Assembly (NCBI RefSeq): GCF_003390865.1
Contig: NZ_QMEJ01000003.1
Coordinates: 186,001-250,000 of the forward strand
Direction of reading: 5' to 3'
DNA: 64,000 bases
DNA from: Tropicimonas sp. IMCC34011
GTDB taxonomy: Bacteria > Pseudomonadota > Alphaproteobacteria > Rhodobacterales > Rhodobacteraceae
Shown: in pieces, positions 26,189 to 37,930 of the stretch
Numbering within the stretch: the first letter of the stretch is position 1
Layout: each line of letters starts with the position of its first letter
The notes under the pieces: model-generated
Database searches by the model: none
Seen by the model: the letters and a program-made list of their open reading frames with translations, nothing else
Told to the model about the DNA's origin: nothing
Translations under genes and position numbers: made by a program

Positions 26189-26434
26189 TCAGTCGTCGAG
26201 ACGCCGTGCTTCGTCGACCAGCATGATCGGAATGCCGTTGCGAACGGGATAGGCGAGGCCCGCGTTCTTCGAGACGAGCTCCATCGTCTCCGCGTGCCAT
26301 GCAAGCTGCGCCCCCGTCTGGGGGCATACCAGCGCTTCCAGCATCTTGCGGTCGAAGCCGGGGCTGGACACGTCGCCCTCTTCGGGCCCATCGATCACCG
26401 GGCCCGCCTCGGGCCCTCTGATTTCGGTCGTCAT
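26189..26434 (-). CDS. Trm112-family protein (YcaR-like)
   Basis: Small protein of 81 residues. The Trm112 core is clear: [14 protein letters not shown], then [23 protein letters not shown]. In E. coli YcaR and eukaryotic Trm112 a CPxC knuckle binds zinc; here the second cysteine is Thr (CPQT) and no later cysteine pair exists, so zinc is probably not bound, which is common in alphaproteobacteria. Trm112 proteins activate methyltransferases in eukaryotes and archaea; the bacterial role is unsettled. The start overlaps the LON-domain gene by 4 bases, so the two are coupled. Confidence 0.9.
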
Positions 26435-27078
26435 TGCAGCATCTCCTCGCCACCGTCGCCCCGCCGTAGCGCAAATTCCATCAGCGTGACCAGAGTTTCC
26501 CGGCGCGTCGCCAGGGTCGGTGCCTCCAGAAGGGCCTGCTTCTCCTCCACATCGAAGGGGCAGAGCATGGAGAGCGAGTTGATCAGAAGCTCGTCCTCGG
26601 CGTCCTTCAGGCTGTCCCAGTCCGTCGAGAGACCGCGCGCATCGAAGAAGCGATTGAGCTTTGACATGAATTCCGGGCGCGAGAAGCGCGGATCTGTCTC
26701 GGCGTGGCCAAGATCGCGGGCGAATGGCGTCCACTCGACATCGGCCGTGAGATAGGGCGCGAAGCTGTCGTTCTCGGACAGGATGCGGAAGCGCGACACG
26801 CCGGTAAGCGTGATCATGTAGCGCCCGTCCTCCGTTTCCGAGAAGCCGGTCAGGCGCCCGGAGCATCCGATCCGGTGAAGCTTGCGCGCCTCACCGCCGG
26901 GCACCTCGCGAGGCTGGACCATGCCGATGAGACGGTGGGACGTCTTCATCGTATCCTCGAGCATCTGCAGGTAGCGCGGCTCGAAAATATGGAGCGGCAG
27001 CCGGGCGCGCGGCAGCAGCAGCGCGCCCGGAAGCGGGAAGATCGGGATCGTCTTTGGAAGGTCGCTGGCTGATAGCAT
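26431..27078 (-). CDS. LON-substrate-binding-domain protein
   Basis: Stand-alone N-terminal LON domain of 215 residues: [26 protein letters not shown] near the start, [37 protein letters not shown]. It lacks the ATPase and protease parts of Lon, and its function is unknown; substrate recognition or a protein-interaction role is presumed. Length matches the widespread ~215-residue family. The CnoX-like gene ends... rather, it starts upstream on the same strand with 26 bases between, and Trm112 follows with a 4-base overlap, a gene order frequently seen in Rhodobacterales. Confidence 0.92.
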
Positions 27079-34754: not shown

Positions 34755-35924
34755 ATGTCCTTCGACGATCCCATCGAGCGGCGCGGCACCCATTCGGCGA
34801 AGTGGGACATGATGGAGAAGGTCTACGGCGTCTCCCCGACGGACGGCATCCCGATGTGGGTCGCGGACATGGATTTCCGCCCGCCCGACTGCGTGCGCCG
34901 GGCGGTCGCCGACATGGCCGATCACGGGGTCTTCGGCTATTACGGCGATGACGCGTCCTACCGCGATGCGATCACTTGGTGGATGGGCGAGCGCCACGGC
35001 TGGACCGTCGATCCCGCGCACATCCTGACCACGCACGGCCTCGTCAACGGCACCGGCATCTGCGTCCAGAGCTTCACCGCTCCGGGGGATGCCGTCGTCC
35101 TGATGACGCCCGTGTATCACGCCTTCGCCCGCGTCATCGAAGCCGCGGGGCGCAGCGTCACCGAATGCGACATGACGCTGACGGATGGTCGCTACACCTT
35201 CGATACGGATCAGTGGGAGGCGACGCTGACCGGGCGGGAGACGATGTTCGTCCTCTGCTCCCCCCACAATCCCGGTGGCCGTGTCTGGACGGCGGAGGAA
35301 CTGGAGGCCATCGCGGAGTTCTGCCGCAAGCATGACCTCATCCTGATCAGCGACGAGATCCACCACGACCTCGTCTTCCCCGGCCGGACGCACATCCCGA
35401 TGGCCACGCTGCCGGGCATCGAGGACCGGCTGGTGACCATGACGGCGACCACCAAGACGTTCAACATCGCCGGCAGTCATACCGGCAACCTGATCGTCGC
35501 GGATGAGGCCCTGCGCGCCAAGCTCTCGGGCACGCTCGCCGGCCTCGGCCTCTCTCCCAACTCCTTCGGCCTGCACATGGCGGAAGCGGCCTACTCTCCG
35601 GAGGGCGCGGCCTGGGTCGACGAGCTGATCGCGTATCTCGACGGCAACCGGAAGATCTTCGACGCCGCCATCGCGGACATTCCCGGCCTCGCCTCGATGC
35701 CGCTCGAGGCAACCTATCTCGCCTGGGTGGATTTCGGCGGGGCTGGAATGAGCGCCGAAGAGGCCGCGTCCCGCGTCGAGGGTCAGGCCCGCATCGCGGC
35801 GAATCACGGACCGACCTTCGGCTCCGGCGGCGGCAGCTTCCTGCGGTTCAACTTCGCCACGCGCCGCGCCCTCGTCGAAGAGGCGGCGGAGCGGCTGAAG
35901 AGCGCGTTCTCGGACCTTCAGTAA
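34755..35924 (+). CDS. PatB/MalY-type PLP-dependent C-S lyase
   Basis: Fold type I PLP enzyme of 389 residues. The family N terminus is clear (SAKWDMMEKVYGVSPTDGIPMWVADMDF); PLP contacts are CSPHNPGGR near 178, ISDEIHHDLVF near 205, and the lysine in MTATTKTFNIAGSHTGN near 237. PatB and MalY are cystathionine beta-lyases or aminotransferases acting on sulfur amino acids; which substrate applies here is open. ATG 34755 has GGAGACC upstream. It ends 3 bases before the convergent gene's stop. Confidence 0.9.
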   Translation: MSFDDPIERRGTHSAKWDMMEKVYGVSPTDGIPMWVADMDFRPPDCVRRAVADMADHGVFGYYGDDASYRDAITWWMGERHGWTVDPAHILTTHGLVNGTGICVQSFTAPGDAVVLMTPVYHAFARVIEAAGRSVTECDMTLTDGRYTFDTDQWEATLTGRETMFVLCSPHNPGGRVWTAEELEAIAEFCRKHDLILISDEIHHDLVFPGRTHIPMATLPGIEDRLVTMTATTKTFNIAGSHTGNLIVADEALRAKLSGTLAGLGLSPNSFGLHMAEAAYSPEGAAWVDELIAYLDGNRKIFDAAIADIPGLASMPLEATYLAWVDFGGAGMSAEEAASRVEGQARIAANHGPTFGSGGGSFLRFNFATRRALVEEAAERLKSAFSDLQ

Positions 35925-35927
35925 GCC

Positions 35928-36278
35928 TTAGTAGCCAGGCAGAAGCCCCGCTGGCGGCTCCGGCGCATCGGCGAAATCGGCCGGCGGCGCGGTCATGGCG
36001 GTGGTGGAGGACTTGATCTCGAAGATGCGCTCTCCGTCCGCTTCGGCGCTGCTCATCACGAGCGCGCGCAAGACGTGGGCCTGTCCGTCATAGAGGTCGA
36101 CATGGCCGCGCAGGCCGGGTGCCTCCGTCGCATCGAGGGAGAACCCGCCATCCCAATGGCGCAGGATCCTGAAGGTGCGGTCGCCTGCCTTCACCCGCAT
36201 CCGGGAAGATTTGAGTGACCGCGCGCGCCGCGCCTCGTCGAGCCCGCGCAGGACTGCATCTGGAAGAATATCGTTCAT
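35928..36278 (-). CDS. Conserved hypothetical protein, 116 residues
   Basis: No family recognised. The protein is soluble, rich in charged residues in the first half (GLDEARRARSLKSSRMRVKAGDRTFRI) with alternating beta-like segments after it and a Pro/Ala-rich tail ending LLPGY. ATG 36278 is preceded by GGGGAGG at good spacing, which supports the start over the longer frame. On its 5' side TTGACT (36356-36351) could be a -35 box, but the matching -10 (ATTTTC after 17 bases) is poor. Confidence 0.7.
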   Translation of the reverse strand: MNDILPDAVLRGLDEARRARSLKSSRMRVKAGDRTFRILRHWDGGFSLDATEAPGLRGHVDLYDGQAHVLRALVMSSAEADGERIFEIKSSTTAMTAPPADFADAPEPPAGLLPGY

Positions 36279-36421
36279 GGCGTGACCTCCCCCCGAATTC
36301 GCGGCCCGCTCCGCCGCTACTCCCTTTGAAAATGCGCGCCATGATTTTTGAGTCAAGCTTCCACCTTCAAGTTTCATGGAAGGTTCACACGAGGGCGTAA
36401 ACGTCGGGTAAATGATCGCGG

Positions 36422-37930
36422 TCAGCCGTCCAGGCCGCGGCCCATCGCGATCACCGCTGCGGCGGCCATCGCGGCCCCGCCCCGCCTGCCTCGCAGCGTG
36501 ATGAAGTCGCAGCCCCTCGGCCGGGCCGCGAGCTCCGCCTTGCTTTCCGCGGCTCCGACGAACCCGGCCGGAAAGGCCAGGATGACGGCGGGCCGCGGCG
36601 CCCCTGAATCCAGCGCTTCGAGCAGCTTGAAGAGCGCCACCGGATCACTGCCGATGGCGACCACGGCGCCGCCGAGTTGGTCCGGCACTATGCCGGTTCG
36701 GGTCTGGGCCGTCGGAAGGCCGGCGCGGATCCCGGCCGCCACCATCTCGCAATCGCAGAAGACAGGCGCTTGGTCCGTCATCGCCGCTCTGCCCTGGGTC
36801 GCCGCACCGCCCGAGAAGGCGAGCCGGTCAGCCACTTCCGCCATGCCGCAAGCCTCGATCAGACGCACGACCACGGCCTGCATGTCGGCTCCGAAGTGTT
36901 CCAGGCGCGCCTCCGACCGTATCGCGGAAAAGCTCTTCGCCCGGATCGTCGCCGGATCGGTATCGTAGCGCCCGGCCACGCCCTCGGCGGGCCCCGGAAT
37001 GGGCGCCGGCCGGTCGATGGCGGTCTGCAGGGCCGTCTCATGGCCCAGACCGAGGATGCTCGCCTCCTCCCGAAGGGCCTTCCGCGGTAGCTCGGCGCGC
37101 TCTTCCAGCATGCGCGCCAGCCGCCCTTCGAGATCCAGCCGCGCGAATCCGCGCGAGAGAGCGGCGACCTGCGCCGCATCGAGGGGCCTGCCCGTCAGCG
37201 CAGGCACCTTCACCATGGATGGGTAGATTTCCACGAAAACAGGAGCGAGATCCTCGCCCGCGCCGTTCGTCTTTCCCGAAATACCCCCGCCGGAGGCTCC
37301 CGCGGCCTCGGATAGCTCCCCCGCCAGCACCTCCTCGAACGGCCAGACGAGGGCGCCCATCTCCAGCCGGATACGCTCGAGCGCGGCGATTCCCGTCAGG
37401 GTCTGCCCGCCGACGGAGCCGATACCGTTCAGCTTCCAGACCTCCTGAGACCCGGTCGCGCGCGCCTCGGCGTGACGCAGGCGCGGCAACGGCCCGGCTT
37501 TCGGGCGTGTTCGCGGCAGCCCGTCCACATCGCGCTTGAGCCCGTTGCCCCAGAACGGCCCGTCTCCCTCGAATGCGCCGTTCAGACGCGCGGCGAAATC
37601 GAAGCGGTCGTTCGCGTTCGCGGGGCCGTCGGTCAGGCCTGCGGCGATGGCGGACCAGACGCCGCGCCAGTCCCCGCCGAACGGGGCCGCGAACCCTTCG
37701 GGGTAGCCGAGCGCGAAATCGAATCCCGCGAGGACGCGTCGGCCAGCGCGCCGTTCCTCCGCGATCATGGCGAGGATCCGGTCCGTCGCCTCCGCCCGCG
37801 TTGCGGGGTTCTCCAGCTCCGGCCGGACCTCGCCCGCTCTCAGGCGGGCGATCCAGATGCTGTCAGGCCCGGTACGAGGCTGCGCGGCAGCGGACCAGTC
37901 GACCATGAGGTAGGCGCCGAAGACCTGCAC
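36422..37930 (-). CDS. RNase H-like (DUF429-type) domain fused to a divergent CobH-like domain
   Basis: A 502-residue two-domain protein. Residues 1-320 resemble DUF429-type RNase H folds: VDWSA with Asp11, GFDFALGYP with Asp71, VWPFE near 196, VEIYPS with Glu234. Residues 321-502 follow precorrin-8X methylmutase CobH/CbiC (DPATIRAKSFSAIR, CDCEMV, VVAIGSDPVALF, GFVGAAESK, RGRRGG). The catalytic His43 of CobH (context RMVHACG) is Glu359 here (RLIEACGM), and about 25 residues before VVAIG are missing, so mutase activity is doubtful. GTG 37930 was chosen for GGGAGAG 7 bases upstream; TTG 37960 would overlap the preceding stop. No other cobalamin gene is in the window. Confidence 0.82.
   Translation of the reverse strand: MQVFGAYLMVDWSAAAQPRTGPDSIWIARLRAGEVRPELENPATRAEATDRILAMIAEERRAGRRVLAGFDFALGYPEGFAAPFGGDWRGVWSAIAAGLTDGPANANDRFDFAARLNGAFEGDGPFWGNGLKRDVDGLPRTRPKAGPLPRLRHAEARATGSQEVWKLNGIGSVGGQTLTGIAALERIRLEMGALVWPFEEVLAGELSEAAGASGGGISGKTNGAGEDLAPVFVEIYPSMVKVPALTGRPLDAAQVAALSRGFARLDLEGRLARMLEERAELPRKALREEASILGLGHETALQTAIDRPAPIPGPAEGVAGRYDTDPATIRAKSFSAIRSEARLEHFGADMQAVVVRLIEACGMAEVADRLAFSGGAATQGRAAMTDQAPVFCDCEMVAAGIRAGLPTAQTRTGIVPDQLGGAVVAIGSDPVALFKLLEALDSGAPRPAVILAFPAGFVGAAESKAELAARPRGCDFITLRGRRGGAAMAAAAVIAMGRGLDG

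Follow-up and report, generated by a model that had tools for sequence, protein, structure and literature searches.

What is a CobH-like domain without its catalytic histidine doing behind an RNase H-like domain, in a bacterium whose genome seems to lack the rest of the B12 pathway? The question is raised by a fusion gene at positions 36422..37930 on the minus strand of the window, the whole stretch of 64,000 nucleotides that was analysed. The gene starts with GTG and encodes 502 amino acids followed by a stop. Its coding part covers positions 36425-37930 of the minus strand with the stop at 36422, and the plus-strand frame is interrupted by stops. An N-terminal RNase H-like domain, for which the shorthand RNH is used here (residues 1-300; 37031..37930, minus strand), is joined to a degenerate CobH/CbiC-like domain (residues 321-502; 36425..36970, minus strand), which is the sole CbiC match of the genome.

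The degenerate CobH half

The fusion protein scored 144.6 bits with the Pfam CbiC model (PF02570), above the gathering score of 22.5, and the match fell into two stretches, broken between model positions 78 and 116. With the NCBIfam equivalog PRK08285.1 the CobH half reached 183.5 bits, below the cut-off of 276. Over residues 322-500 the domain is the same as that of CobH/CbiC (PDB 3e7d, 1f2v and 4au1), and its predicted fold matched CobH structures with Z scores of 20.7-22.4. It differs from CobH/CbiC in the absence of the pathway, in the loss of 17 out of 66 invariant columns, in the missing part of a loop and in the residue at the catalytic position. At the latter, codon GAG (36854..36856, minus strand) places Glu359 opposite the CobH histidine in alignments with PDB entries and reference CobH domains. 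This histidine is invariant in 17 of the 17 reference domains and corresponds to the catalytic His43 of CobH. The middle loop is incomplete: compared with the fusion of genome G035, 25 alignment columns are absent between the MV motif and VVAIG. Profile gap and alignments together place this deletion, which is in frame and about 25 residues long, near residues 401-411 (36698..36730, minus strand). The motifs GFVGAAESK and RGRRGG were retained.

A sequencing or frame artefact was ruled out by the 502 open codons, the two base changes that separate His from Glu and the 17 conserved columns that differ. The preliminary description of this locus had reported a CobH-like domain with a GAG-encoded Glu359 for His and a region about 25 residues too short between the MV motif and VVAIG, and had proposed a CbiC profile search. 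Both observations were borne out by the alignments and reference domains, and the profile did recognize the CobH half. Judged from these sequence features, the CobH half is presumably catalytically dead.

Cob genes in the window genome and in its relatives

The window genome (G000) is 99.99% complete. It contains two TP_methylase matches, against six to nine per genome in 15 relatives with a histidine-bearing CobH (the genomes compared other than G000, G295 and G181); the two are presumably a CysG-like and an RsmI-like protein. No match in the genome was found for CobI, CobJ, CobL, CobM, CobN, CobB or CobQ, and GATase_3 gave one match of 33 bits against two of 105-208 bits each in G035, G107 and G057. 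In 14 control genomes, CbiC was found in 7, TP_methylase in 14, CobN in 5, the B12-binding domain in 12 and GATase_3 in 14. Two B12-binding domains of the window genome scored above the cut-off, one of them in a frame which we take to be a methylmalonyl-CoA mutase, and therefore the bacterium probably uses imported B12 without making it. The preliminary description had proposed to look for a separate canonical cobH; this possibility was rejected, as the fusion carries the only CbiC gene of the genome. The same description had seen no other cob or cbi gene in the window, and it was right in this: a tblastn search with 12 G035-region genes as queries (E up to 0.01) detected no cob genes or remnants there, its sole hits being one of 28.9 bits for CobM at 26325-26438 and one of 40 bits for CobC, which fell on the patB aminotransferase.

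Twelve other fusions of RNH to CobH were read, 11 from the 30 best-matching loci (L006-L035) and one, L003, from Pseudoroseicyclus aestuarii (genome G295). The catalytic histidine is kept in 11 of the 12, the exception being L003 with glutamine. Fusions with His at this position were named in the preliminary description as evidence that would speak against its reading, and they turn out to be the rule. The fusion is followed by cobL, cobJ and cobM in all ten compared regions that keep the histidine (G035, G007, G107, G194, G206, G260, G057, G192, G001 and G276), with a TP_methylase between cobL and cobJ in the nine other than G035. In G035 the fusion is followed by cobL, cobI, a cbiG/cobJ fusion and cobM, of which cobI, cobJ and cobM scored above their NCBIfam cut-offs; cobL was scanned with NCBIfam in the genome of L003. 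G118, which lies outside the regional comparison, has four TP_methylases within 5 kb after its fusion.

In the genome of L003 (G295), cobL (L048:9282-10478) lies next to the CobH with glutamine. It has lost one of 120 cobL invariants and both its halves scored above the NCBIfam cut-offs. Three other TP_methylases are present, presumably two CysG-like proteins and one RsmI-like protein, the latter by score and length only. No CobN-type match was found in this genome, the GATase_3 matches were weak (31 and 25 bits) and no B12-binding domain was above the cut-off. Simple pathway decay does not explain an intact cobL beside a CobH with glutamine.

The gene order in G035, G202 and G260 is smc, transglycosylase, cbiB, cobC-like, response regulator, an unnamed gene, sirohydrochlorin-chelatase-like (scoring below its cut-off), RNH, cobH, cobL, cobI, cobJ, cobM, small hypothetical, patB and def, where the identities of smc, the transglycosylase, the response regulator and def are presumed. 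Across 13 cob-cluster regions, which were compared up to about 19 kb or to the contig ends, the small hypothetical gene and patB follow cobM in four (G035, G107, G202, G260), the small gene without patB in three (G057, G192, G003) and neither of them in six (G007, G194, G206, G001, G276, G063). In the window, the small hypothetical gene (35928..36377, minus strand; recognized by tblastn synteny) comes directly after the fusion, and next to it lies a patB-type C-S lyase gene (34755..35924, plus strand, taking the first ATG in frame as the start; NCBIfam TIGR04350, 379 bits over 34779-35921). As RNH::cobH, the small gene and patB are adjacent, cobL to cobM, which intervene in the relatives, are therefore gone. 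In G181, a genome of 86% completeness, RNH is present without a CbiC match: this genome lacks both the CobH half and the cob genes, and its remaining order is the same.

Two further observations concern this region. The small hypothetical gene, for whose G035 homologue NCBIfam gave no hit, is retained in both the window and G181, neither of which has these cob genes. At locus L014 (G202:C1), RNH and cobH are adjacent genes in different frames inside a cob cluster, which may be a split of the fusion or the state before it.

The RNase H-like domain and its partners

Asp11, Asp71, Glu234 and Asp251 are invariant in an alignment of 24 sequences of the N-terminal domain, from which the RNH loci L011, L017, L028 and L033 were left out; L011 (G276) is without Asp11 and Asp71. 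With this one exception, the four acids are conserved in the RNH references, each in at least 24 of 25. Their places, on strands 1 and 4 and close to the C-terminus, are those expected of an RNase H-like domain. Two AlphaFold2 models, whose confidence is low overall (mean pLDDT 59.3 and 54.8), have the strand-helix order of the RNase H type. The structure matches listed for the N-terminal half include terminase nucleases (TerL), RuvX, RuvC, Tex, Spt6, IS110-type transposases and actin-like ATPases, with best Z scores of 8.3 and 7.8 in the two model searches, a size which is not proof. For the model with a mean pLDDT of 54.8 (best Z 7.8), most of the 50 matches listed were of the RNase H-like or the related actin-like ATPase fold when classified by eye. 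An earlier Foldseek search had returned RNase HI at an E value of 0.42 only. With the RNase H-like group of RuvC, YqgF, Tex and Spt6, the modelled domain would share the strand-helix order and an Asp at the end of the first and of the fourth strand, and its Z scores to RNase H-like chains reached 7.8.

The N-terminal half had no Pfam hit, neither in the window (E up to 1) nor at L003 and L004 (E up to 10). When 24 RNH domains were searched as a profile against the PDB, the hits, ribosomal protein L5 and a prostaglandin synthase, had E values of 0.11 or worse and were not credible, and no RNH relatives were found in viral contigs. The NCBIfam model PRK14495 (NF011066), named 'MobB / unknown domain fusion protein', matched the half with 134.6 bits, the best stretch being residues 4-201. 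Its unknown domain matches the RNH domain described here; it differs in that the partner in the window is CobH, with no MobB match and a score far below the cut-off of 596 bits.

DUF429 (PF04250) was considered as a name for the N-terminal half. The RNH consensus resembles it by eye (Asp, D-x-P-x-G, E-x-x-P), and a published classification places DUF429 among the RNase H-like proteins (PMC3985635). The name was rejected because there was no Pfam match and hhalign gave a probability of 0.4 against three DUF429 sequences. A DUF429 profile search over 41 genomes matched three, and the window genome was not among them. Of the DUF429/RNase H fold proposed in the preliminary description, the RNase H-like part is suggested by the low-confidence models and the DUF429 part found no profile match; the residues Asp11, Asp71 and Glu234 which it pointed out are indeed invariant in the 24-sequence alignment, together with Asp251. 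The models suggest that the RNH fold is RNase H-like, and the most probable function of RNH is that of a metal-dependent hydrolase (RuvC/YqgF/Tex type) which would work independently of CobH.

RNH was found in 173 of 295 genomes of the same family, sampled with one genome per genus, nearly always as one match each (two are listed for three genomes). Among the best 30 loci, it is fused in one frame to CobH in 12, the window included and L033 being cut by a contig end, to MoeA in eight and to MobB in one (L026). In one (L014) it lies next to cobH as a separate gene. It has no in-frame partner in four (L009 of G181, L025 near a contig end, L030 and L035), and CobH occurs without RNH in another four. 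The order mobB-RNH-moeA, a molybdenum-cofactor cluster, is present at all nine MoeA/MobB loci (L021, L024, L026, L027, L028, L029, L031, L032 and L034), the identity of MoeA and MobB being based on Pfam for L021, L024 and L026 and on tblastn for the remaining ones.

An RNH domain 46-50% identical to that of the window was also seen at L004:1727-2590, on a 4.5-kb contig of a metagenome-assembled genome labelled Gammaproteobacteria, which would be either a transfer or a binning error.

No paper on an RNH-type domain fused to MobB, MoeA or precorrin-8X methylmutase was found in the open-licence literature. Within one bacterial family, an uncharacterised domain with a testable role is joined to three proteins of cofactor biosynthesis, MoeA, MobB and CobH. 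This RNH module is a more interesting question than the probable CobH relic.

Unequal conservation and the fate of the CobH half

The two halves of the window protein are conserved to different degrees. Out of the 66 columns invariant in 17 CobH domains, 17 are lost in the window and nine in L003. When the references were left out in turn, 16 of the 17 had lost 0-4 and one, L005 (a standalone CobH of another lineage), had lost 10. In RNH, 38 columns show conservation of 95% or more across 25 references; the window keeps 36 of them and has lost one of 22 strictly invariant columns (Leu187 to Ile), and L003 has also lost one of these 22. Terminal branches were compared on a fixed tree of 13 RNH/CobH pairs, those of G202 being separate genes and G118 being left out because it is cut by a contig end. 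The CobH/RNH ratio was 1.78 for the window, 1.31 for L003, 1.20 for G001 and 0.22-0.82 for the other ten, and 0.58 for the 11 intact pairs pooled. Measured against RNH, the CobH half of the window has changed at about three times the rate seen in intact pairs. G001 keeps the histidine and the pathway, yet has its ratio of 1.20. The genera of G000 and G181 were represented by one genome each, which left no close relative for dN/dS.

The mirror case was found in G276 (L011, G276:C7:24022-25221). Here RNH has lost six of 28 invariants, including Asp11 and Asp71, and CobH one of 67 when left out in turn, with the cob genes following. Since the window and G276 decay in opposite halves, RNH and CobH seem not to need each other, and as read from the sequences the two halves decay independently in different genomes.

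The losses in the CobH half of the window are not random. This half has no stop or frameshift, 49 of the 66 invariants are kept and its third-position GC equals that of the RNH half (0.845 and 0.844); pure neutral decay would therefore have to be recent. Losses in the window concern 11 of 24 polar and 6 of 42 non-polar invariants (p 0.008), those in L003 6 of 24 and 3 of 42 (p 0.06), and of the nine columns lost in L003 the window has lost six too (p 0.007), where all p values treat the columns as independent. In the RpoB tree, the neighbour of the L003 genome is G107, whose CobH is intact and which has seven TP_methylases; the placement of G000 is weakly resolved. The pattern of losses suggests partial maintenance of the CobH fold, though not of its chemistry, or else a recent loss.

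Taken together, we consider it likely that the CobH half is a non-catalytic relic, left behind by loss of the cob operon and carried along by a conserved RNH module. In the ancestral state, RNH would have been fused to an intact CobH inside a cob cluster, as it is in the relatives. The remaining cob genes would have been deleted in the lineage of the window, and the CobH half would therefore have lost its substrate and begun to decay, with the histidine changing to glutamate, other conserved polar residues being lost and 25 residues of the middle loop being deleted. The RNH half would have stayed under selection, thereby preserving the open reading frame. The RNH::CobH fusion itself is not special; the genome without the pathway is.

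The dead CobH half could also be a folded, probably dimer-forming tail which RNH needs for its stability or pairing. The intact frame, the deletion in frame, the preserved GFVGAAESK and RGRRGG, the loss of polar rather than core residues and the maintained third-position GC would all fit such a scaffold. It is nevertheless an unlikely reading, as RNH also exists fused to other proteins or lacks any in-frame partner (L009 of G181, L030, L035) and the CobH half has changed about threefold faster relative to RNH than it does in intact pairs.

Control of RNH by a corrinoid or another tetrapyrrole bound to the dead CobH half appears quite improbable. Its precedent is CoaR of Synechocystis, in which a CobH-like tetrapyrrole-binding domain is joined to a MerR domain (PMC7689651) that it is thought to control. 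CoaR structures (PDB 8x33, 9ika, 9ikt and 9ipl) match the CobH half in the structure search, and the window genome, with its two B12-binding domains, seems to use B12 without making it. However, the 25 loop residues are gone together with conserved polar residues that presumably line the corrin pocket, the halves decay independently, RNH occurs elsewhere without CobH, and the genome of L003, whose CobH carries Gln at the His position, has no B12-binding domain above the cut-off. A more specific form, in which the CobH half has become a sensor that binds a corrinoid taken up from outside and gates the RNase H-like enzyme fused to it, is slightly more doubtful again. Tetrapyrrole sensing by the CobH half is possible but not indicated, and nothing favours it over decay. 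A methylmutase still active through Glu359 or another residue replacing His is hardly credible: the fold model does match CobH structures (Z 22.4 to 3e7d_B), but there is no enzyme to make the substrate, CobI, CobJ, CobL and CobM being absent among the TP_methylases.

The preliminary description is thus supported where it saw the fusion of a retired CobH domain with an RNase H-like one. Its further idea, recruitment of the retired domain for tetrapyrrole binding and for control of its neighbour, is not supported, because 11 of the 12 other fusions keep the histidine, decay accompanies the absence of the pathway, the halves decay independently and RNH occurs with other partners or none.

As a probable relic of operon loss, the locus seems to be a clear example of a fusion that survived the pathway to which one of its halves belonged. 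The relatives show different states: intact, with His changed to Gln, with His changed to Glu and a deletion, with the tail gone, and a mirror case with the other half decayed. It is also a warning for annotation, as a CbiC match by itself does not mean B12 synthesis.

Among known systems, CoaR, a MerR-type cobalt regulator, has in common with the window protein a CobH-like domain fused to an unrelated domain. By this analogy, tetrapyrrole sensing by a CobH-like domain would be a known kind of thing, and if the sensor reading were true, the fusion would represent a second, independent sensor use of the CobH fold, arising from a fusion with a redundant enzyme half. The two differ in the partner, which is RNase H-like here and not MerR: Pfam finds CbiC only in the fusion protein and no MerR DNA-binding domain. 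They also differ in that relatives of the window protein carry an intact CobH in the same fusion, its decay being secondary.
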